DNA from: Candidatus Kuenenia stuttgartensis
GTDB taxonomy: Bacteria; Planctomycetota; Phycisphaerae; Phycisphaerales; SM1A02
Direction of reading: 5' to 3'
Length of the DNA stretch: 39,262 nucleotides
NCBI GenBank assembly: GCA_945902075.1
Contig: CAMDMA010000034.1
Location: 1-39,262, forward strand
Shown piece after piece: positions 13,170 through 31,455 of this stretch. Every line of letters begins with the position of its first letter. Position 1 is the stretch's first letter. The notes beneath the pieces are model-generated. The model was not told where the DNA came from. It did not search any database and was given only the letters and a program-made list of their open reading frames with translations. Both the position numbers and the translations under genes were made by a program.

Positions 13170-14345
13170 ATGAGCGACACACTTGATGCCATCGTGGTTG
13201 GGCTGGGAGCGATGGGCTCAAACGCCCTTGCCGTGCTCGCTCGCCGCGGAAAGCGCGTTCTCGGCCTCGATCGGTTCGACCCTCCACATAACTTTGGTTC
13301 ATCGCATGGCGGCAGTCGCGTCATCCGACTGTCGTACTTTGAGCATCCTGATTACGTTCCACTTCTGAAGCGCGCATACGACGCGTTTGATCGGCTCGCG
13401 CAAGATTCGGGCGAGACGCTGCGCATCGAGAATGGGCTGGTGATGGGCGGTGCGCCGGGCAACGCGGTCGCCGCGGGCATGCTTCGGAGCGCGCGCACGC
13501 ATGATCTACCAGTGTCGGCCCTAGATGGCGCAGAACTCATGCGCCGCTATCCGCAGTTCACGGTGCCCGCGGATTGGGAAGTGGTCTTCGAGGCGCGAGG
13601 CGGCTTCGTTCGGCCTGAAGCGACCATCCGTGCTGCGCTTGCCGCAGCGGCCCGCGACGGCGCGAGGATTGAGCGCGAGACGCCGATCGCGGCATGGGGA
13701 AGCGACGGTCGCACCGCGTGGGTTGAGACGGCGAGAGGGCGCTTCGAGGCTTCTGCGCTGATCCTCGCCGCTGGTGCATGGATGCCTGCATGCACCGGTA
13801 CCCGGCAATCAGGCCAAAATCCGCTGCGGCTCACCCCGACGCGCGAGACGCTCGTCTGGATCGACGACGAGGGAGACCCAGATTGGCACGCGACGCGGAT
13901 GCCCGTCTGGCTCTTCGATCGCGGAAACGAGCCAGCGGTCTACGGGGTGCCAGCATTTGACCTCATGGGCGCACCGGGAGGGATGAAGGTCGGGCTTCAC
14001 GGCAGCGGCGGACCGGTGCGCCCGGAGCAGATTTGCGAGCCCGTCGAGCCAGCGATTGTCCGAAAAACCGTGCAAGCGATGCAGGAGCGGCTTCGCGGGG
14101 CCGCGGGTCGCCGGGTCACCGGCGCGTGCTCTTGTCTCTACACCATGTCCAAGGACGGCCATTTTGCGGTGGGACTTCACCCGGACCACTCGAATGTCGC
14201 GATTGCAGCCGGCTTCAGCGGGCACGGCTTCAAGTTTGCGCCCGTGATCGGAGAAGCGCTTGCGGACCTCGCGATCGGAGGCGAGACGCACCTTCCGATC
14301 GGATTTCTCGCCCCCGGTCGGCTGCTCAAAAATGGCACTTTTTGA
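13170..14345 (+). CDS. solA: Monomeric sarcosine oxidase / N-methyl-L-tryptophan oxidase-like flavoenzyme
   Basis: Length is 391 residues, the usual family size. It oxidatively demethylates N-methyl amino acids, releasing formaldehyde and hydrogen peroxide. Seen: the FAD dinucleotide-binding GLGAMG (residues 11-16), the family stretch SSHGGSRVIRLSYFEHPDYV, and CLYTMSKDGHF near the C terminus, whose Cys322 corresponds by alignment of the motif to the residue that binds FAD covalently in monomeric sarcosine oxidase. GFSGHGFKFAPVIGE near the end is also characteristic. Which N-methyl amino acid it uses cannot be told. It follows the protease by 27 bases, but a functional link is not apparent. 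Confidence 0.88.
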   Translation: MSDTLDAIVVGLGAMGSNALAVLARRGKRVLGLDRFDPPHNFGSSHGGSRVIRLSYFEHPDYVPLLKRAYDAFDRLAQDSGETLRIENGLVMGGAPGNAVAAGMLRSARTHDLPVSALDGAELMRRYPQFTVPADWEVVFEARGGFVRPEATIRAALAAAARDGARIERETPIAAWGSDGRTAWVETARGRFEASALILAAGAWMPACTGTRQSGQNPLRLTPTRETLVWIDDEGDPDWHATRMPVWLFDRGNEPAVYGVPAFDLMGAPGGMKVGLHGSGGPVRPEQICEPVEPAIVRKTVQAMQERLRGAAGRRVTGACSCLYTMSKDGHFAVGLHPDHSNVAIAAGFSGHGFKFAPVIGEALADLAIGGETHLPIGFLAPGRLLKNGTF

Positions 14346-14454
14346 GCCAGGCGCCAAGTTTTTGCCGGCGAAGACCTTTCGTGCGCCGGTTTCCCGAAGC
14401 CATCGTGAATTACCCAGGGAACACTTGAAGGACCACTGTTGGTGGCTCTAAATA

Positions 14455-14508
14455 GGGAAGCATGAATGGGGGAGGCATGAATGGGGAAGCATGAATGGGG
14501 AAGCATGA
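14455..14508 (+). repeat. 14-bp tandem array carrying overlapping start/stop (ATGA) mini-ORFs
   Basis: There are four copies of GGGGAAGCATGAAT (the second reads GGGGGAGGCATGAAT), with ATG at 14462, 14477, 14491 and 14505. Reading frames: ATG 14462 gives ten residues ending in TGA at 14492-14494, which overlaps ATG 14491; that ATG gives MNGEA and ends in TGA at 14506-14508, overlapping ATG 14505; that gives MNARKRATARSASQ and stops at 14547-14549. Each unit has a purine-rich GGGGA or GGAGG just before ATG. See the similar ladder at 29081-29161. Confidence 0.85.
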
Positions 14509-14515
14509 ACGCACG

Positions 14516-14553
14516 AAAAAGGGCCACTGCGAGATCGGCTTCGCAGTAGCCCC
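14516..14553 (-). terminator. Rho-independent terminator (minus strand)
   Basis: Read on the minus strand, GGGCTACTGCGA (14552-14541) pairs with TCGCAGTGGCCC (14532-14521) with one mismatch and an eight-base loop, followed by TTTTT (14520-14516). On the plus strand there is no T tract. It lies about 290 bases downstream of the ThuA stop, so it may end either a long ThuA transcript or the short RNA proposed here. Confidence 0.6.
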
Positions 14554-14599
14554 ATGGGGGAAAAGATCGTGGTTGGATCGCGTCAGTTTCCCTCGCGAC
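14516..14599 (-). ncRNA. Possible small RNA with its own promoter and terminator
   Basis: On the minus strand TCGACA (14633-14628), a 16-base spacer and TATACT (14611-14606) resemble a sigma-70 promoter, which would start a transcript near 14599. It would run about 84 bases to the terminator T tract. Inside, TCGCG and CGCGA form a first small hairpin, followed by an unpaired pyrimidine-rich segment and then the terminator stem. There is no plausible start and frame in it. The support is only the promoter-terminator pairing, and planctomycete promoters often deviate from this consensus. Confidence 0.27.
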
Positions 14600-14845
14600 A
14601 ACCGAAGTATAGAAACTCACTTGCGGCTGTCGAGGGTCACTTGCGTGAACAATTCAAATTGTTCGCATTTCTTGCAAACGAACGAAGTCATTTTGGAACA
14701 GGGCGGAAAAACAATAGTGTTCTGACTGATCTGCTTCGGGAGGTGCACGTTCACATCGCGGCGGAGTTTCGCGCGAATCTCTCGAAACCCGCTTCAAACC
14801 GATGCAACGGCCGTCATCGGACATTGGTCCGCCCCGCGGAATCAC

Positions 14846-15688
14846 CTACTTCTTGTCGGCTTTGGTCGCATCCTTCGTTATCGCTGTCGCGTCGGTCGCG
14901 CCCGCGGCCCAAAGGATCCCGCCCTCGAGGTGCTGACGAAAAAGGGGTTCTTGAAAGCTCTCTTTGGTGTGGCCTCCGCCGGTGTACCACGACCGTCCGC
15001 CGTCAAACTCATGAAACCACGCGATCGGATGATCGCCGTTCATGGTTGGACCTTTTACCGTGGAACCATCGAGAGTCGCGAGCACGCGAACCGCGCCGCG
15101 TGGGTTATGGTCGTAAACGTACCACTCATCGGTGCGGATCCACGATGCAGGCAACATGCGGGTCGAGCGATGGGTTCGATCTTCGACCTTCACCGTGGAT
15201 TCTTGGACTGGTGGATGTGTCTTGAAGTACGCGCCCACGAGTTTGCCAAACCAAGGCCAGGTGTGCTCAGTGTCTGCAGCGGCGTGAATCCCAGCGAAAC
15301 CGCCGCCTGCTCGGATAAACGTCTCGAAGGCCCGCTGTTGTCCGTCGTTGAGAATGTCCCCGGTCGTCGAAACAAAAACGATGCAGCGATAGCGGGCGAG
15401 GTTGGCGTCGGTGAACGCCGCGGCATCTTCGGTGGCGTCGAAGTCGTAACGATCACCGAGAATCTCGCGTACGCAGTTGATGCCGTCCGGAATGGACTCG
15501 TGACGGAATCCTGCGGTCTTCGAAAAGAGAAGAATGCGGTCGCGAGGTGCGGTTGGCGTGGCGGTTGGCGCCTTCGCGTCGCCCGTCGGAGCTGATTGCG
15601 CAGCAAGAAGAAGGAGCGTGCCTCCAAGAAACGCTGCGGCTCCGGCGAGGGTGCGGGCTTGGGAGTATCGCTTCCGGTGCAGGCTCAT
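14846..15688 (-). CDS. ThuA domain protein, exported
   Basis: Length is 280 residues from ATG 15688. A longer frame reaches 15781 but would overlap the start of the divergent kinase gene and precede the signal sequence. The N terminus has basic residues and then a hydrophobic segment (GAAAFLGGTLLLLAAQSA), so it is probably secreted or membrane-anchored. Seen: ILLFSKTAGFRHESI, GGGFAGIHAAADT and HPIAWFHEFDGGRSWYTGGGHT, the conserved blocks of the ThuA family (trehalose-utilisation-like, a glutamine amidotransferase-type fold). ThuA-like proteins in Planctomycetes often sit with sugar-oxidoreductase genes, but none adjoins it here. Some relatives are 3-keto-sugar enzymes; no enzymatic activity can be assigned here. 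Confidence 0.87.
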   Translation of the reverse strand: MSLHRKRYSQARTLAGAAAFLGGTLLLLAAQSAPTGDAKAPTATPTAPRDRILLFSKTAGFRHESIPDGINCVREILGDRYDFDATEDAAAFTDANLARYRCIVFVSTTGDILNDGQQRAFETFIRAGGGFAGIHAAADTEHTWPWFGKLVGAYFKTHPPVQESTVKVEDRTHRSTRMLPASWIRTDEWYVYDHNPRGAVRVLATLDGSTVKGPTMNGDHPIAWFHEFDGGRSWYTGGGHTKESFQEPLFRQHLEGGILWAAGATDATAITKDATKADKK

Positions 15689-15779
15689 ATCGCGAGCGTC
15701 GTGCCGGATGAACTGAAAGTCAAGTGCACATCGGCGATGTTGTGTCCAACTTGTCGCCGACGTACCCTTCGAGCGGATC

Positions 15780-18428
15780 ATGTCACTTCCAAGCGTCGAT
15801 GAAATCTCAAGGGACTTGCCGCGCAGCGCGGAAGCGTTGTCACCGCTTCTCGCGCGTATGGCAGAGGCTGTTCGTGCCGCGGTCGATGCGGAGTCTTGCG
15901 AGATTTGGATCTGGCGTGCGCAGGCGTCGGGTCATCGTTCGCTCCATCGAGCAGGGCTTGCGGGGCTTCCGCGCTCAACCGCCGATGTTTGCGACGAAAC
16001 ACTCAACTCGGGGCCGCTCGGCGCACTCGCTGATCACCGAGCACCACGCGAGCCCGACCACGCAGAAACCGCACATTTCGTCCTCGGACCATTTGGATTT
16101 GTCACGGTTGCGCGCACGATTGGGAGCATCGCGCAGCAGGACTTTGATGAGATTCGCGCCTGGCTTGTCTTATTGGCTGATGCGGTTGGCGCTCGGTTTC
16201 CGCAGACGGAACTGGCCGAAATCAATCGCTGGCTGTTGGTGCGCGCGGACATCGATCGGAGAGCTACGCGCGCGTTTGCTCGCGTCCAGTCGCTGAAGGA
16301 ACTTGCGAGCACCATCGACGGATTCGCCGAGGAGACGGTGCCCGTTGAGTATTCGGGCCTCTATTTCCTTGACCCGGACACCCAAGTACTACGGTTATTG
16401 TTTGCACGCGGATTGAGCGAACGAGAGCGTCGCGCAGCCGAGGAGACGGCTGAGTCGCGACATCCTGGCGAGGTCATTCGTACAGGCCGTGCGATTGACA
16501 TCGTCGATACCGAGGAGCGCGACGGTGAAAACGCAGCTGGGATGCAGACCCGCGCGGGCATGGAGGGTCATGGCCAAGCCGTGCGGTCACGGCTCTTCAT
16601 TCCTGTCTGGTCGGAAGGAAGCGTCGTAGGCACGATCGGTTTCGCAAGTTCGAGCCGTGCGAGTTTCAGTGCCCGCCATAGACAAGTGCTCGAATTTCTC
16701 GCAGATTTTGCAGGACTCGCCTACGCGCGAATTGTTGCAGACCGCGCGAACACGCGCCGCGGAGCATTGCTTGAGGCTGGCATTGACGCGACAGAACGGT
16801 TGCTTGGCGCTTCGGACTGGAAGCCTGCGGCGTACGCGGCACTCGCCATGATCGGCAGTGCGATGAACGCTGGAACAATCGCGATGCTTGAACTCGCCGC
16901 GATTGGCGGCCAGAGTCGTGACGCGCCCGATAGGCAGCAACCGCTTGAGTTCGTTTGGCAGCCTACGTTTGGAAATCCGTGGATTCGAGCGGAGCGCATC
17001 GCGCACGCGACGGAGGAGGAGCGAGCACATCTGACCGCGCTCCGTGCGGTCACACTGCAGTTCGACGATGGCGCGCCGCCAGCGATACTGAAGCCGGTGA
17101 TCGTTGATGGAGTGCTTTGGGGTGTCATCGTCCACGAGCCGCGACCAGGAACGCGGCGCGAACTCGACCGCGCGGAACGCTCCGCGCTGCGCGGGTTGGG
17201 CCAAGCCTTCGCGACCGCGATCGCACGTGAGCGGGTGGATCAACTGCTTCGGCACCGGCAACAAATGGAAGCAGTTGGCCAGCTTGCAGCAGGTATCGCC
17301 CACGAATTCAACAACCTGTTGTGGCCGATTCTGCTGTACAGCGAGATGCTTGAGCGCAACGCTCCGCTCGACGAACGCTCGCAGCAAATGGTGCGTGATA
17401 TGCACACGGCAGCGCGGAGTGCGAGCGTCTTGGTTCAACAAGTGCTCGCCATCTCACGCCGACGCGATCGGATGGTCGAGATCGTCCACGTCCCAGAAAT
17501 TGCGATCGAAGTCTCGAACACCCTCCGACGAAACGCACCTGCGAAGGTTCGGATTACTGCGGAAATCGATGCGGACGCAGGGCAAGTTCTCGGCGATTCG
17601 GTCGCGTTACAACAGGCACTGATGAATCTTGGAACGCACGCGATTGATTCGATTGGCGATCAGAGCGGCTCGATTCGATTTGAGGTCAGCGCCGTCACGC
17701 GGGGAGGACAGCGTGCGGTACGCGTTGTTGTCGTCGACGACGGTCCCGGCATGACACGCGACGTGTGCCTTCGCGCCTTCGAGCCGTATGTGGTGGCAGA
17801 CTCTGTGGAGAGGCCTCGATCTGGACTCGGTCTTAGCGTCGCTCATCGCATCGTGACGGAGATGGACGGGTCGATTTCGGTTGAAAGCTCTGTGGGCGGG
17901 GGAACGCGATTTGAGGTGCTGCTGCCGCTCATTGCAGCCGATCGTGCTCCGTCTCAGCAATCTCCCGCACGAACGGCGGCCAAGATTCGTGACAATATCG
18001 AGACGCGCGTGTCCGCCATCGGACTGGCCGCGCAGCTCGCGCATCACGTGCTCTTCGTCGACGACGACGCACTCGTGCGCGATGTCGGACGCGAGATGCT
18101 TGAGATGCTCGGGTATCGCGTGACCGTTTGCGCGCACTCTGAGGAGGTTCTCGCCGCAATCGGAAAAGAGGAGAGTTCAGCTCCGATGTTCTCGCTGCTG
18201 CTCACAGACCTCACCATGCCGGGAATGAACGGAATCGACCTCGCGCGCGAGGTTCGCGCGCGACGACCGACGTTACCGATTGTCTGTTGCTCGGGATTTG
18301 TTGATCCTGAAACAGAGCGGCGCGGTTTCGAAGCGGGTATGTGCGCGTTCGTTCGTAAACCAATCAACTTTGACACGCTCGACGCAGCGGTCAAAAAGGC
18401 CATTCACGAGGCCCGCGCGGGTGGTTGA
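15780..18428 (+). CDS. Hybrid sensor histidine kinase: GAF repeats, HisKA, HATPase, receiver
   Basis: Length is 882 residues, with no obvious membrane segment, so it is probably cytoplasmic. The order is GAF-like domains at about 15-145, 160-315 and 330-480; a dimerisation/phosphoacceptor domain with GIAHEFNNLL (His508); an ATPase domain with DDGPGM and a GLGLSV lid box; a linker; and a receiver domain from about 755 with acidic FVDDD, TDLTMPG (Asp810) and VRKP (Lys860). Family knowledge gives autophosphorylation at His508 and phosphotransfer to Asp810. Oddity: in the N box the usual NLxxNA reads NLGTHA, so the second Asn, which helps bind Mg-ATP, is His620. No dedicated response regulator with a DNA-binding domain lies next to it, so the output partner is elsewhere. 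It is divergent from the ThuA gene (91-base gap). Confidence 0.9.
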   Translation: MSLPSVDEISRDLPRSAEALSPLLARMAEAVRAAVDAESCEIWIWRAQASGHRSLHRAGLAGLPRSTADVCDETLNSGPLGALADHRAPREPDHAETAHFVLGPFGFVTVARTIGSIAQQDFDEIRAWLVLLADAVGARFPQTELAEINRWLLVRADIDRRATRAFARVQSLKELASTIDGFAEETVPVEYSGLYFLDPDTQVLRLLFARGLSERERRAAEETAESRHPGEVIRTGRAIDIVDTEERDGENAAGMQTRAGMEGHGQAVRSRLFIPVWSEGSVVGTIGFASSSRASFSARHRQVLEFLADFAGLAYARIVADRANTRRGALLEAGIDATERLLGASDWKPAAYAALAMIGSAMNAGTIAMLELAAIGGQSRDAPDRQQPLEFVWQPTFGNPWIRAERIAHATEEERAHLTALRAVTLQFDDGAPPAILKPVIVDGVLWGVIVHEPRPGTRRELDRAERSALRGLGQAFATAIARERVDQLLRHRQQMEAVGQLAAGIAHEFNNLLWPILLYSEMLERNAPLDERSQQMVRDMHTAARSASVLVQQVLAISRRRDRMVEIVHVPEIAIEVSNTLRRNAPAKVRITAEIDADAGQVLGDSVALQQALMNLGTHAIDSIGDQSGSIRFEVSAVTRGGQRAVRVVVVDDGPGMTRDVCLRAFEPYVVADSVERPRSGLGLSVAHRIVTEMDGSISVESSVGGGTRFEVLLPLIAADRAPSQQSPARTAAKIRDNIETRVSAIGLAAQLAHHVLFVDDDALVRDVGREMLEMLGYRVTVCAHSEEVLAAIGKEESSAPMFSLLLTDLTMPGMNGIDLAREVRARRPTLPIVCCSGFVDPETERRGFEAGMCAFVRKPINFDTLDAAVKKAIHEARAGG

Positions 18429-27524: not shown

Positions 27525-29093
27525 ATGATGTCGCGTCCGATGCAGCCCGAGCGCAGCGATCAGCGGCCCGTCGTTCTTTCGGTGCGTGGCGTCGGCCGAC
27601 GCTACGCGGGCGTCGTCGCGCTCGCGGGCGTCGACCTCGAGATCCGCGGCGGCGAGGTGCTTGCGATCGTCGGTGAGAACGGCGCGGGCAAGTCGACGCT
27701 GCTCAAGATCCTGTCGGGCGTCGTGCAGCCGAGCGAGGGTTCGGTCGCGGTGGCCGATGCGTCGGGCGCGCTGCGCGAGCTCGCGCTCGACGGCGTGCGC
27801 GAGGCGACCGACGCGGGCATCGCGCTCGTGCATCAAGAGCTCAACCTCGCGGAGAACCTCGATGTCGCGGGCGCGATCTACCTTGGCCGCGAGCCGTCGC
27901 GGTTCGGGTTTCTCGACCGCGCGCGCATGCGCGCCGAGAGCGCGAGGTGGCTTGCGCGCGTGGGGCTCGACCTCGATCCCGGCACGCTGTGCGGAACCCT
28001 GCGGATCGCGCAGCGGCAGCTCGTCGAGATCGCGAAGGCGCTCTCGACCGAGTCGCGCATCCTGATCCTCGACGAGCCGACCTCGAGCCTGACGACGCGC
28101 GAGACGGAGCGCCTGCTCGAGATCATGGACGAGCTGCGGCGCGCAGGCGTGGCGGTGGTGTTCGTCTCGCACCACCTCGACGAGGTGATGAAGATCGCCG
28201 ACCGCGTGGTCGTACTGCGCGACGGCCGCAAGACCGGCGAGCTTGCGCGCGGCGAGTACGACCGCGCCGCGATCGAGCGGCTCATGGTCGGGCGCGACAT
28301 CGCGCGGGCGGAGCGGCGCGCGGTGGCCGCGGACGCCGCGACGCGCCTCGAGGTGCACGGGCTCGTGACGACGCATCGGCGCCGCGTCCCCGCGTCGCTC
28401 GCGGTGCGCGCGGGCGAGATCGTCGGGCTCGCGGGGCTCGTGGGCGCGGGCCGAACCGAACTCCTCGAAGCGATCGCCGGTCTCGGCGCCTCGAGCGGCA
28501 TCGTGCGCCTCGACGGCCGCGCGCTGCCGGCGGGCGCCTCGGCGCGCGTCCGCGCGGGCGTGGCGCTCGTGCCCGAGGACCGCGCGCGCAACGGCCTCTT
28601 CCTCGAGGATTCGGTGGCGACCAACATGTCGCTTGCATGGATCGACCGCTCGAGCCGCGCGCGGCTCGTCGACGCGCGCGGCGAGCGCGGGATGGTGGAG
28701 CGCATGGTCGGCCGCATGCAGCTGCGCCCCGCGCAGCCATCGCGGCGCGTCCAGACGCTTTCGGGCGGAAACCAGCAGAAATCGGTGATCGGCCGCTGGC
28801 TTGCGATTCATCCGGCCGTGCTCCTCCTCGACGAGCCGACCCGCGGCGTCGATGTCGGCGCGCGCGCGGAGATTCACGCCGAGGTCCGGCGCCTTGCCGA
28901 GCAAGGAAGCGCCGTGGTGTTCGCCTCGAGCGAGCTCGAGGAGGTGCTGATGCTCGCCGACCGGATTCTCGTGATGTACGAAGGCGTGATCGCGGGCGAG
29001 CTTTCCGCCCACGAGGCGACCGAAATCGCGATCATGCAGCTCGCGACGGGAGGCGGAACCCCGAGAGCCCATCCGCCGACGGCCCAGCCATGA
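27525..29093 (+). CDS. Sugar ABC transporter double ATP-binding protein (RbsA/MglA-like)
   Basis: Length is 522 residues; there are two possible ATG codons (27525 and 27528). It has two nucleotide-binding domains, as in RbsA/MglA/XylG. First domain: Walker A GENGAGKST (50-58), a signature region reading RIAQRQLVEIAKAL and Walker B LILDEPTSS. Second domain: a degenerate Walker A (GLVGAGRTELLEAIAG, as usual in this family), a full signature LSGGNQQKSVIGRWL and Walker B LLLDEPTRGVDVGAR. It energises uptake of the sugar delivered by the binding protein upstream. The stop codon TGA overlaps an ATG (ATGA, 29090-29093) that begins a ladder of mini-ORFs leading to the permease start. Confidence 0.93.
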   Translation: MMSRPMQPERSDQRPVVLSVRGVGRRYAGVVALAGVDLEIRGGEVLAIVGENGAGKSTLLKILSGVVQPSEGSVAVADASGALRELALDGVREATDAGIALVHQELNLAENLDVAGAIYLGREPSRFGFLDRARMRAESARWLARVGLDLDPGTLCGTLRIAQRQLVEIAKALSTESRILILDEPTSSLTTRETERLLEIMDELRRAGVAVVFVSHHLDEVMKIADRVVVLRDGRKTGELARGEYDRAAIERLMVGRDIARAERRAVAADAATRLEVHGLVTTHRRRVPASLAVRAGEIVGLAGLVGAGRTELLEAIAGLGASSGIVRLDGRALPAGASARVRAGVALVPEDRARNGLFLEDSVATNMSLAWIDRSSRARLVDARGERGMVERMVGRMQLRPAQPSRRVQTLSGGNQQKSVIGRWLAIHPAVLLLDEPTRGVDVGARAEIHAEVRRLAEQGSAVVFASSELEEVLMLADRILVMYEGVIAGELSAHEATEIAIMQLATGGGTPRAHPPTAQP

Positions 29094-29161
29094 AAGGCCC
29101 AGCCATGAAGAAGGCCCATCCATGAAGAAGGCCCACCCATGAAAAAGGCCCATGCATGAAA
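29081..29161 (+). repeat. 17-bp tandem array with ATGA start/stop ladder before the permease gene
   Basis: There are five copies of a 17-bp unit, consensus ATGAARAAGGCCCAYCC, the first shortened to 15 bp, with ATG at 29090, 29105, 29122, 29139 and 29156. The last is the start of the permease gene. Frames: ATG 29090 (overlapping the ATPase stop) gives MKGPAMKKAHP and ends in TGA 29123-29125, overlapping ATG 29122; that gives MKKAHP and ends at 29140-29142, overlapping ATG 29139; that gives MKKAHA and ends at 29157-29159, overlapping ATG 29156. Each unit holds AAGG seven bases before the next ATG. The unit copies the permease's own first codons (MKKA). Confidence 0.95.
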
Positions 29162-30142
29162 AAGGCTCTTGGCATCATCGCCATCTTCCTCGCGATCTTC
29201 GTGTTCGCGTCGCTCTACGGCGAGAACTTCCTCACCGGCATCAACCTGATGCAGCTGACGCAGCGGACCGCGCTCTACGCGATCCTCGCGCTCGGCGCAG
29301 CGCTCGTGATCGTGACCGGCGGCATCGATCTCTCGATCGGCTCGGTCGTCTGCCTCGCGGGCATCACGACGCCGTGGCTCCTGATCGAGCACGAGTGGTC
29401 GCCGTGGGCGGTGGTGCCGACCGTGCTTGCGATGTCCGCGGGCATCGGGCTCTTCCACGGGCTCCTCATCACGCGGCTCAAGCTGCAGCCGTTCCTCGTC
29501 ACGCTCTGCGGCCTCCTTCTCTACCGCGGCATCGCGCGCTGGATGACGGGCGACCAGACGCAGGGCTTCATGGGCGAGCACGGCGACCTCCGCAAGCTCG
29601 CGACCGGCCGCTTCGAGATCCCCGGCGTCGAGAACTTCCTGCTGCCCGCGACCGTGATTCCCGCCGCGATCCTCGCGATCGTGATCGGCGTCTTCTACTC
29701 GCGCACCGTCTGGGGTCGCTGGCTGCTCGCGACCGGCCGCAACGAGAGCGCCGCGCGCTACTCCGGCATCCCGACCGCGGGGCTCGTGACGATCTCGTAT
29801 GTCGGCTGCAGCCTGCTCGCGGGCTTCGGCGGCATGCTCTTCATCTTCGACATCAGCAGCGCGCAGCCCTCCGACTTCGGCAACTTCTACGAGCTCTACG
29901 CGATCGCGGCGGCCGTGCTCGGCGGATGCAGCCTCCGCGGCGGCGAGATCAGCGTGATCGGCGTCATCTTCGGCGCAGCGACGCTGCAGGTGCTGCGCAC
30001 GACCATCATCCTCGTCGGCCTCTCGTCGCAGCTCGAGTTCGCCGTCATCGGCGCCGTGCTTCTTCTCGGCGTCGCGGCCGACGAAGGCGTCCGCCGCTTC
30101 CTCTCGCGCCGGCTCGAGCGCTCCGCTGCGGCGGTGCGCTGA
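29156..30142 (+). CDS. Sugar ABC transporter permease (RbsC-like)
   Basis: Length is 328 residues, all hydrophobic helices and short loops, the normal size for RbsC/XylH-type permeases (BPD_transp_2 family). Seen: NLMQLTQRTALYAILALGAALVIVTGGIDLSIGS near the N terminus, the characteristic GGIDLSIGS segment of this group, and the loop VWGRWLLATGRNESAARYSGI that contacts the ATPase. It forms the inner-membrane channel of the sugar transporter. The start was fixed at ATG 29156, the last ATG of the ladder. The epimerase gene follows after 80 bases that hold a second tandem array. Confidence 0.93.
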   Translation: MKKALGIIAIFLAIFVFASLYGENFLTGINLMQLTQRTALYAILALGAALVIVTGGIDLSIGSVVCLAGITTPWLLIEHEWSPWAVVPTVLAMSAGIGLFHGLLITRLKLQPFLVTLCGLLLYRGIARWMTGDQTQGFMGEHGDLRKLATGRFEIPGVENFLLPATVIPAAILAIVIGVFYSRTVWGRWLLATGRNESAARYSGIPTAGLVTISYVGCSLLAGFGGMLFIFDISSAQPSDFGNFYELYAIAAAVLGGCSLRGGEISVIGVIFGAATLQVLRTTIILVGLSSQLEFAVIGAVLLLGVAADEGVRRFLSRRLERSAAAVR

Positions 30143-30163
30143 GTCTTCGACCCACCGACCAAT

Positions 30164-30219
30164 CCCACCCAGCAGTTCCCACCCAGCAGTTCCCCCCCAG
30201 CAGTTCCCACCCAGGAGAT
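30164..30219 (+). repeat. 14-bp tandem array ending in the ribosome-binding site of the epimerase gene
   Basis: There are four units of 14 bp: CCCACCCAGCAGTT at 30164-30177 and 30178-30191, CCCCCCCAGCAGTT at 30192-30205, and CCCACCCAGGAGAT at 30206-30219. The last copy supplies the Shine-Dalgarno AGGAG and is followed by CCC and the ATG of the epimerase gene (30223). The earlier copies carry AGCAG instead, so they are weak or lost ribosome sites. Confidence 0.9.
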
Positions 30220-30222
30220 CCC

Positions 30223-31455
30223 ATGCAAGTACCAGCGACCCTCGCACTCCTCGCGCCGCTCGCCCTCGCGGCCTGCGCCTTCGCACAGCAGCCCGCGGCC
30301 GCGCCGCCGGCCCAGCCCGCGCCGCCCGCGGCCGAGATCACGAAGAAGGACTGGGGCACCGTCGACGGCAAGCCCGTCCACCTCTGGACGCTGCGCAACG
30401 GGCGCGGCATGGAGGCCGAGATCAGCGACTACGGCACGATCATCGTGTCGCTCAAGGCGCCCGACGCCGGCGGCAAGTTCGACGATGTGGTGCTCGGCCG
30501 CCCGAGCGCCGCGGACTATGTGGCGCGCACCCAGTACTTCGGCTGCACCGCCGGCCGCTGCGCGAACCGCATCGCCAAGGGCCGCTTCTCGATCGACGGC
30601 AAGGAGCACGCGCTCGCGACCAACAACGGCGCGAACCACCTCCACGGTGGCGTGAAGGGTTTCGACAAGGTCGTGTGGAAGGGCGAGGCGAAGATGACCG
30701 ACGCCGGCCCGAGCGTCACCTTCACCTACCGCTCGCCCGATGGCGAGGAGGGCTACCCGGGCAATGTCGACGCGACGGTCGTCTACACGCTGACGAACGC
30801 CAACGAGCTCAAGGTCGACATGAGCGCGACCACCGACAAGCCGACGGTCGTGAACCTCGCGCACCACACCTACTGGAACCTCGCGGGCCACGGCTCCGGA
30901 GACATCCTCGGCCACCTGCTGATGCTCCCCGCGAAGCGCTACACGCCGGTCGACTCGACGCTCATCACCACGGGCGAGATCGCGCCGGTGTCGGGAACGC
31001 CGCTCGACTTCACCGTGATGAAGCCGATCGGCAAGGACTTCGCGGCGATGCCCGCCACCAAGGACGATCCCGGCGGCTACGACCACAACTTCGTGCTCGA
31101 CAAGAGTCCCAATCAGAACGGGCTCTGGCTCTCGGCGATCCTGATGGAGCCGAAGTCGGGCCGCATCATGGAAGTCTGGTCGAACCAGCCGGGCATCCAG
31201 TTCTACACGGGCAACTTCCTCGACGGCATCCCCGGCAAGAACGGAGCCGTCTACCAGAAGAACGGCGCGCTCTGCCTGGAGACGCAGGCGTTCCCCGACT
31301 CGATCAACAAGCAGGGTCAGGATGGGAAGATGAAGGACGGCTGGCCGAATGTCGTCCTGCGCCCGGGCGAGACCTACAGCCACTCGATGTTGCACCGCTT
31401 CTCGACGGTGAACCGCTCCTTGCCCGCCGCCCCGACGACGCCGGCCGCGAAGTAG
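30223..31455 (+). CDS. galM: Exported aldose 1-epimerase (galactose mutarotase-like)
   Basis: Length is 410 residues from ATG 30223 with AGGAG upstream. It interconverts alpha and beta anomers of sugars. Seen: a signal peptide with LAAC at residues 15-18 (possible lipoprotein) and a low-complexity Ala/Pro stretch to about 38; the GalM fold with NHLHGG (His141), HHTYWNLAG (His215, the expected catalytic acid) and LETQAFPDSIN (Glu353, the expected catalytic base). All three positions correspond to His104, His175 and Glu309 of E. coli GalM by motif. Last gene of the transport operon; being exported, it may present the right anomer to the binding protein. It is followed by a long hairpin. Confidence 0.92.
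   Translation: MQVPATLALLAPLALAACAFAQQPAAAPPAQPAPPAAEITKKDWGTVDGKPVHLWTLRNGRGMEAEISDYGTIIVSLKAPDAGGKFDDVVLGRPSAADYVARTQYFGCTAGRCANRIAKGRFSIDGKEHALATNNGANHLHGGVKGFDKVVWKGEAKMTDAGPSVTFTYRSPDGEEGYPGNVDATVVYTLTNANELKVDMSATTDKPTVVNLAHHTYWNLAGHGSGDILGHLLMLPAKRYTPVDSTLITTGEIAPVSGTPLDFTVMKPIGKDFAAMPATKDDPGGYDHNFVLDKSPNQNGLWLSAILMEPKSGRIMEVWSNQPGIQFYTGNFLDGIPGKNGAVYQKNGALCLETQAFPDSINKQGQDGKMKDGWPNVVLRPGETYSHSMLHRFSTVNRSLPAAPTTPAAK

Follow-up and report, generated by a model that had tools for sequence, protein, structure and literature searches.

The window, that is, the whole stretch of 39,262 nucleotides that was analysed, comes from an assembly of 3.31 Mb that is 97% complete. It holds a short tandem array and a putative small RNA (sRNA) gene within the gap between two convergent genes. 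The earlier note had placed the array in such a gap with no gene directly after it, and we confirm this setting: an oxidoreductase gene (DAO) ends at 14345 on the plus strand and a ThuA gene ends at 14846 on the minus strand. Between the array and ThuA, a simple codon-score gene caller finds nothing on the plus strand. One open frame, at 14554-15225 on the plus strand, overlaps ThuA in antisense and was taken as a chance frame. The features discussed below are as follows.

13170-14345, plus strand: FAD-dependent oxidoreductase, DAO family (Pfam PF01266, 7e-41)
14451-14509, no strand assigned: tandem array with 4.1 copies of a 14-bp unit, AATGGGGAAGCATG; interpreted as a slippage minisatellite
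14505-14549, plus strand: last frame of the earlier note, MNARKRATARSASQ and a stop, with its start codon in the non-conserved array
14516-14599, minus strand: putative sRNA gene of about 84 nt, its 5' end estimated from the position of the -10 hexamer
14516-14553, minus strand: intrinsic terminator with a 13-pair stem, an 8-nt loop and a T tail
14553-14565, minus strand: seed CUUUUCCCCCAUG, 13 nt, invariant and predicted to be single-stranded
14577-14599, minus strand: 5' hairpin, variable in sequence with its fold kept
14606-14611, minus strand: -10 hexamer TATACT of a sigma-70-type promoter, 16-bp spacer
14628-14633, minus strand: -35 hexamer TCGACA of the sole promoter-like site found in the 500-bp gap (shuffles mean 0.1)
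14846-15781, minus strand: ThuA family gene (Pfam PF06283, 2.3e-75)

The ladder array and its genomic context

The array carries a ladder of overlapping short frames. TRF reports a period of 14, 4.1 copies, 89% matches and a score of 95. Read by hand, its ATGs lie at 14462, 14477, 14491 and 14505, in steps of 15, 14 and 14 bp. The resulting frames, each closed by a stop, are MNGGGMNGEA (14462-14494), MNGEA (14491-14508) and MNARKRATARSASQ (14505-14549). The earlier note had described these frames, their TGA/ATG overlaps, an in-frame first step of 15 bp and an end at 14549, all of which our hand reading and TRF reproduce; the ribosome site that it saw corresponds to a purine-rich stretch before the ATG in each unit. 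When the period is 3n-1 and the unit contains ATGA, a frame opened by one ATG invariably reaches the TGA in the next unit. Any such unit yields a ladder, and no separate explanation is needed. This array is a case in which a start-stop codon ladder can arise as an arithmetic by-product of repeat length.

The last frame is probably not a gene. Its part at 14516-14549 is antisense to the conserved small-RNA terminator, and the conservation tracks the minus-strand helix. Comparison of positions 14400-14560 with the rest of the genome returned, beside their own place, 11 words of 14-21 bases (E at least 0.13), which were taken as chance matches and not as further copies of the array.

Intergenic tandem arrays are enriched in convergent gaps of this genome. 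Our census covered 827,809 bases (the window and further sequence, about 25% of the genome) and detected 97 arrays at a TRF score of at least 60; 35 in coding sequence and 10 unplaced were excluded, leaving 52 intergenic arrays. Genes were called with the simple codon-score caller, so the gap classes are approximate: of the 52 arrays, 19 fall in convergent gaps (15.7 kb in total), 26 in same-direction gaps (62.5 kb) and 7 in divergent gaps (21.3 kb). Arrays are about three-fold denser in convergent gaps; gap length alone predicts 8.2 there where 19 occur (p 2e-4), and the excess persists when the array at 14451 is left out (18 against 8.0, p 5e-4). A convergent gap is therefore an ordinary place for an array in this genome. 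A stop lies within 25 bp of 14 of the 52 arrays, and a start within the same distance of 5.

The repeat units are mildly enriched in ATGA. Twelve of the 52 units contain it, compared with 5.6 +/- 2.3 in random intergenic pieces of equal length (4 of 300 draws as high, uncorrected for the eight words compared). CATG exceeds this, with 14 of 52 units against 4.4 expected (0 of 300 draws), an excess of about three-fold; CATG is palindromic and thus strandless, which argues against a coding reason. ATG, ATGG and ATGC also exceed expectation (19, 12 and 13 of 300 draws), and TCGA, GCGA and GACA show no clear excess over random pieces. Periods of 3n-1 occur in 18 of the 52 arrays, and in 17 of 39 with periods of 10-20, and are not clearly favoured. 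The mild ATGA enrichment is unexplained by a purely neutral account of the arrays.

These counts separate what the earlier note had proposed. It had asked whether ATGA arrays are unusually frequent: they are, mildly, although CATG is more enriched. It had also suggested a search for 3n-1 units with ATGA, a combination that we find in just 5 of the 52 intergenic arrays, and the ladder as a design is unsupported. Of the lineage-wide habit that it envisaged, the intergenic arrays stand (52 in 828 kb, and in 7 of 11 gaps within the genus, below); the ladder design does not.

Two other arrays in the window lie by genes. At 29081-29166, a 17-bp array with ATGA and a 3n-1 period supplies, in its last copy, the start codon for a 328-amino-acid ORF (at 29156) that follows an ABC-transporter ATPase gene. 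At 30151-30223, the last copy of a 14-bp array, TCCCACCCAGCAGT, forms the likely ribosome site (AGGAGATCCCATG) of an aldose epimerase gene. G+C content climbs at about 24 kb, from about 57-63% to 66-75%, and is high to the window end.

The DAO-ThuA gap carries unrelated arrays, or none, in other species of the genus. We compared 11 genus genomes in which a single contig spans the gap from the oxidoreductase stop to the sRNA (the G010 gap contains 100 N), and this comparison is between species. Arrays with a TRF score of at least 40 are present in 7 of the 11, and with at least 60 in 5; G001, G004, G013 and G015 have none at the lower threshold. Unit lengths are 14 bp here, 18 in G003, 13 in G007, 13 and 12 in G008, 17 in G012, 47 in G014 and 53 in G010, with the G008 and G012 arrays scoring just 50-59, under the census cut-off of 60. 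In the sister genus, none of four genomes has an array in its gap of 20-54 bp. Gap arrays seem to arise, change and vanish independently. Beside the sRNA in G014, G010 and G002, units of 44-53 bp share a stretch like CCAGAGG...CCGCCGCAG, which is perhaps a REP-like element.

Intergenic tandem repeats have been reported in lake Planctomycetota. In long-read data from lake bacterioplankton, noncoding deletions in Planctomycetota were often tied to such repeats, and slippage was named (PMC9426551). The lake repeats resemble the array described here in being intergenic and in tandem; unlike here, the portion of that article available to us describes no ATGA ladder, convergent-gap enrichment or small RNA.

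A translated leader or lost gene start at the array is improbable. The earlier note had offered a relic of a lost gene start or a free-standing leader. In such a reading, a series of ribosome sites with ATGA-coupled mini-frames would feed, or would once have fed, a gene; the purine-rich stretch before each ATG, the roughly two-fold enrichment of ATGA in units and the three other arrays that end at a likely working start (29081-29166, 30151-30223 and the lutA-lutB junction described below) are in keeping with it. Here, however, no gene follows, the next called gene being on the minus strand, and the start codon of the last frame sits in a non-conserved array with a body that is the complement of the sRNA terminator. 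Furthermore, arrays in the census are found next to stops more often (14) than next to starts (5). No related ladder occurs in the DAO-ThuA gap of the relatives examined, which have unrelated arrays or none, so that neither a leader nor a lost start has comparative support. We favor slippage: the array would have formed by replication slippage in a convergent, little-constrained gap, and its frames would follow from ATGA in a 3n-1 unit, with no translated leader, as the lack of conservation suggests.

A conserved putative small RNA gene beside the array

The minus strand next to the array is conserved across the genus. A DNA search with the gap gave matches in 14 of 61 genomes, the main ones outside the window beginning at 14512-14517. 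The sRNA block aligns over 52-69 bp at 91-100% DNA identity in 12 other genus genomes, and over about 99 bp at 79% in G031, from another genus; the flanking oxidoreductase protein is merely 59-70% identical within the genus. Of three terminator-like stems in the gap, the one at 14553-14520 is the longest and is followed by Ts. None of 4227 Rfam families matched the window at the gathering threshold. Below threshold, the best RNA-gene match in the gap was isrD (15.3 bits with 37 needed, E 2.4) and the sole other was sR23 (12 bits with 45 needed, E 1.8).

Promoter, 5' segment, seed and terminator follow in the same order across members. We find this order, beginning with a -10-like hexamer, in 17 members from the own genus (g1) and genus g17. 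TANNNT occurs 28-55 nt before the 19-nt core in all 17, against 6.8 in shuffles, and -10 scores average 6.0, where shuffles give 4.82 +/- 0.18 (0 of 1000). Folding of the 36 nt that precede the core yields a mean of -11.7 kcal/mol, compared with -6.0 +/- 0.6 when shuffled (0 of 300; an upstream control region gave 30 of 300). Controls for hairpin and promoter were mononucleotide shuffles. The 5' hairpin sequence is not alignable between species, and its fold is weak in G015 (z-score -0.7) and in G064 (-0.4), where the predicted fold also differs.

The terminator helix is maintained while its sequence changes. All 221 of 221 cells are paired with no broken pair, and in four pairs, comprising 19 cells, both sides have changed. 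Helices slid along the alignment gave 0-3 double-change cells; shuffles reached the observed cells and covariation score in 0 of 500 cases, the number of pairs with double change in 22 of 500, and the number of pair types in 187 of 500, so that pair types are no higher than in shuffles. The seed CUUUUCCCCCAUG is identical in all 19 aligned members from three genera, and GATCTTTTCCCCCATGGGG in all 17 members from g1 and g17. In the two members from the third genus, g54, the terminator sequence is wholly different, yet CTTTTCCCCCATG, which includes the 13-nt seed, is unchanged; these two show no clear promoter and no stable 5' hairpin. An invariant seed beside two changing helices is strong evidence of selected base pairing.

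The element is restricted to three genera by pattern search. The pattern CTTTTCCCCCATGNGG matched 19 of 181 family genomes, at one site each and with no control match: 13 of 16 in the own genus, 4 of 4 in g17 and 2 of 3 in g54. Among 397 class genomes there were four matches, all in the own genus, and two for the reversed control. DNA similarity or a covariance model, and not the seed alone, brought up the 13 g1 and 4 g17 members; the three-genera limit rests on the pattern, which members with an altered seed would escape. Three genus genomes are without the element: the contigs of G005 and G006 end 210 and 32 bases past the oxidoreductase, and G009 has no oxidoreductase match.

Broader searches added few sequences. 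R2, on the same 181 genomes, gave a match at E 0.05 in 35, of which 19 are the known members; the matches beyond these are weak (E 0.001-0.05), and G011 has a second, partial match at a contig end. Fourteen loci with weaker covariance matches (35.3 bits or less) were read singly, and the two from g54 alone were kept. At one locus in G115 (L089:1501-1569, 35 bits), a terminator-like hairpin has the same AGCCGATC loop and lacks the C-rich seed; it is possibly a distant relative of the sRNA. The 19-nt core matched 18 records of a contig collection and no viral contigs. Sixteen of the 18 hold the element; by title most of these are planctomycete assemblies (Phycisphaerales, Phycisphaera, Planctomycetia, Planctomycetaceae and Planctomycetota), and several come from lakes or ponds. 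The matches in Thermogutta and Roseovarius, with neither flanking gene in the sequence around them and no visible terminator stem, were taken as chance.

The gene neighbourhood is fixed in the loci that can be read. The element lies between DAO and ThuA in all 14 loci with both neighbours visible (13 relatives and the window), and faces the oxidoreductase in 13 of them. In G015, the element alone is inverted and retains a promoter-like TTGACC-17-TATTGT and a terminator. This inversion suggests that the sRNA need not depend on ThuA transcription, and points to an independent gene. The two g54 members show neither DAO nor ThuA in the roughly 1.5 kb to each side.

The conservation of the element, its covariation and its constant gene order support a real, if still putative, minus-strand sRNA gene with its own promoter and terminator. 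One could instead see in the element a mere terminator, that of ThuA or a bidirectional one, with no separate RNA gene. A good intrinsic terminator does sit 3' of ThuA, and the g54 members lack a clear promoter; such a terminator, however, gives no reason for an identical unpaired stretch beside a changing stem, nor for the -10-like hexamer and stable 5' segment that precede the element across 17 g1 and g17 members, and in G015 the element is inverted relative to ThuA. We consider a terminator without an RNA gene very unlikely.

Proposed action and candidate targets

Taken as a whole, we think it probable that the ladder is a slippage minisatellite beside which lies a real minus-strand sRNA gene that acts in trans via its seed. 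The invariant, unpaired seed CUUUUCCCCCAUG would pair with G-rich translation starts; its complement, CAUGGGGGAAAAG, itself contains AUG. Such pairing may block ribosome loading and thereby silence the mRNAs.

This proposal draws on a known design. The rhizobial sRNA alpha-r14/NfeR1 has an ultraconserved, unpaired C-rich motif and strongly differing stems, and acts at translation initiation regions (PMC10746234). A C-rich, predicted-unpaired, invariant seed between drifting helices is the same design, from which we infer pairing with G-rich starts. The two RNAs differ in that the available text of PMC10746234 places CCUCCUCCC in three hairpins, whereas here one linear CUUUUCCCCCAUG lies between two hairpins; the member sequences inspected contain two hairpins and no CCUCCUCCC. 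The sRNA described here also belongs to a different phylum and has no Rfam match at gathering. In IsrR of staphylococci, C-rich unpaired regions pair with the Shine-Dalgarno sequence and AUG (PMC9410917). Its rho-independent terminator is, like the one here, poorly conserved in sequence; going by the available part of that article, IsrR has three C-rich regions, three stem-loops and regulation by Fur, compared with one seed, two hairpins and a candidate target only.

The best candidate target is lutB, as a statistically unsupported lead. Among the 593 translation starts of the sample, lutB ranks first, with a predicted duplex of -26.8 kcal/mol (-32.7 with a longer seed piece). This rank is not independent, since lutB was first met in an exact 10-mer search. 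Of 40 permuted seeds, 5 reach an equally good best target and 8 an equal top-ten mean, and all 40 have a lower, that is better, mean duplex energy over the whole set of starts; because 5 of 40 match its score, lutB remains a lead only. The names LutA and LutB were assigned from translated sequences and not by a family search.

A tandem array also forms the start of lutB, where three copies of a 24-bp unit lie, with GGGGCCCCGAATGGGGGAAAAGC before the ATG. At the lutA-lutB junction (L160:7600-7680, minus strand), 24-bp units GGGGCCCCGAATGGGGGAAA(A)GC enter the LutA C-terminus in frame and supply the lutB ribosome site. Orthologues of lutB were matched in 12 of 16 genomes; 11 loci were read, one of them truncated, and the twelfth, on a partial contig, was left out. 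The units occur in 5 of the 10 genus orthologues with a readable start and are absent in the other 5: there are three copies here, at least five in G007, two in G012, one in G001 and none in five species. We find the element CCCCGAATGGGGG in 3 of 16 genus genomes, always at lutB apart from one additional G007 site (C57). G008, G013 and G015 carry the sRNA without lutB units, which argues against lutB as the reason for seed invariance.

A repeat target of this kind has a precedent in RepG of Helicobacter pylori, a conserved sRNA whose C/U-rich part acts on variable-length G repeats in an mRNA leader (PMC8295292). In RepG, as the accessible text describes it, the terminator loop pairs with a homopolymer, whereas in the sRNA described here the C-rich stretch precedes the terminator; RepG has a repeat target, and for the sRNA here such a target is a lead only (lutB). 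It is conceivable, though improbable, that the sRNA and the G-rich tandem units form one RepG-like system, with AUGGGGGAAAAG-kind targets amplified at ribosome sites. If this were true, unit copy number would tune the response of lactate oxidation to the sRNA, and the array at 14451 would then be a decoy or a mere by-product.

That the G-rich array is a sponge-like decoy or target of the C-rich sRNA, given DAO read-through, is very improbable: its units contain AUGGGGGAGG and AUGGGGAAGC, near the seed complement, and its predicted duplex with the 19-nt core reaches -16.6 kcal/mol, but 5.6% of 2,900 intergenic windows pair equally well in the duplex-energy test, the array at 30151 (minus strand) pairs better (-19.5), relatives' gaps without such units reach -16.0, and the array units in their DAO-ThuA gaps lack the motif, which leaves this reading unsupported.

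Trans-acting sRNAs with C-rich seeds are a known kind, to which we assign this sRNA as a new one, and we regard the array as an ordinary feature. No description of this sRNA was found among titles and abstract beginnings on planctomycete sRNAs in open-licence PubMed Central, and the seed string was not found in the open-licence literature there. Small RNAs are little catalogued in Planctomycetes, and the available text of the review PMC9029176 lists 8 distinct Rfam sRNAs for the entire PVC group. The 13-nt seed, together with the fixed gene neighbourhood, offers a handle for finding the regulon of this putative sRNA in lake metatranscriptomes.
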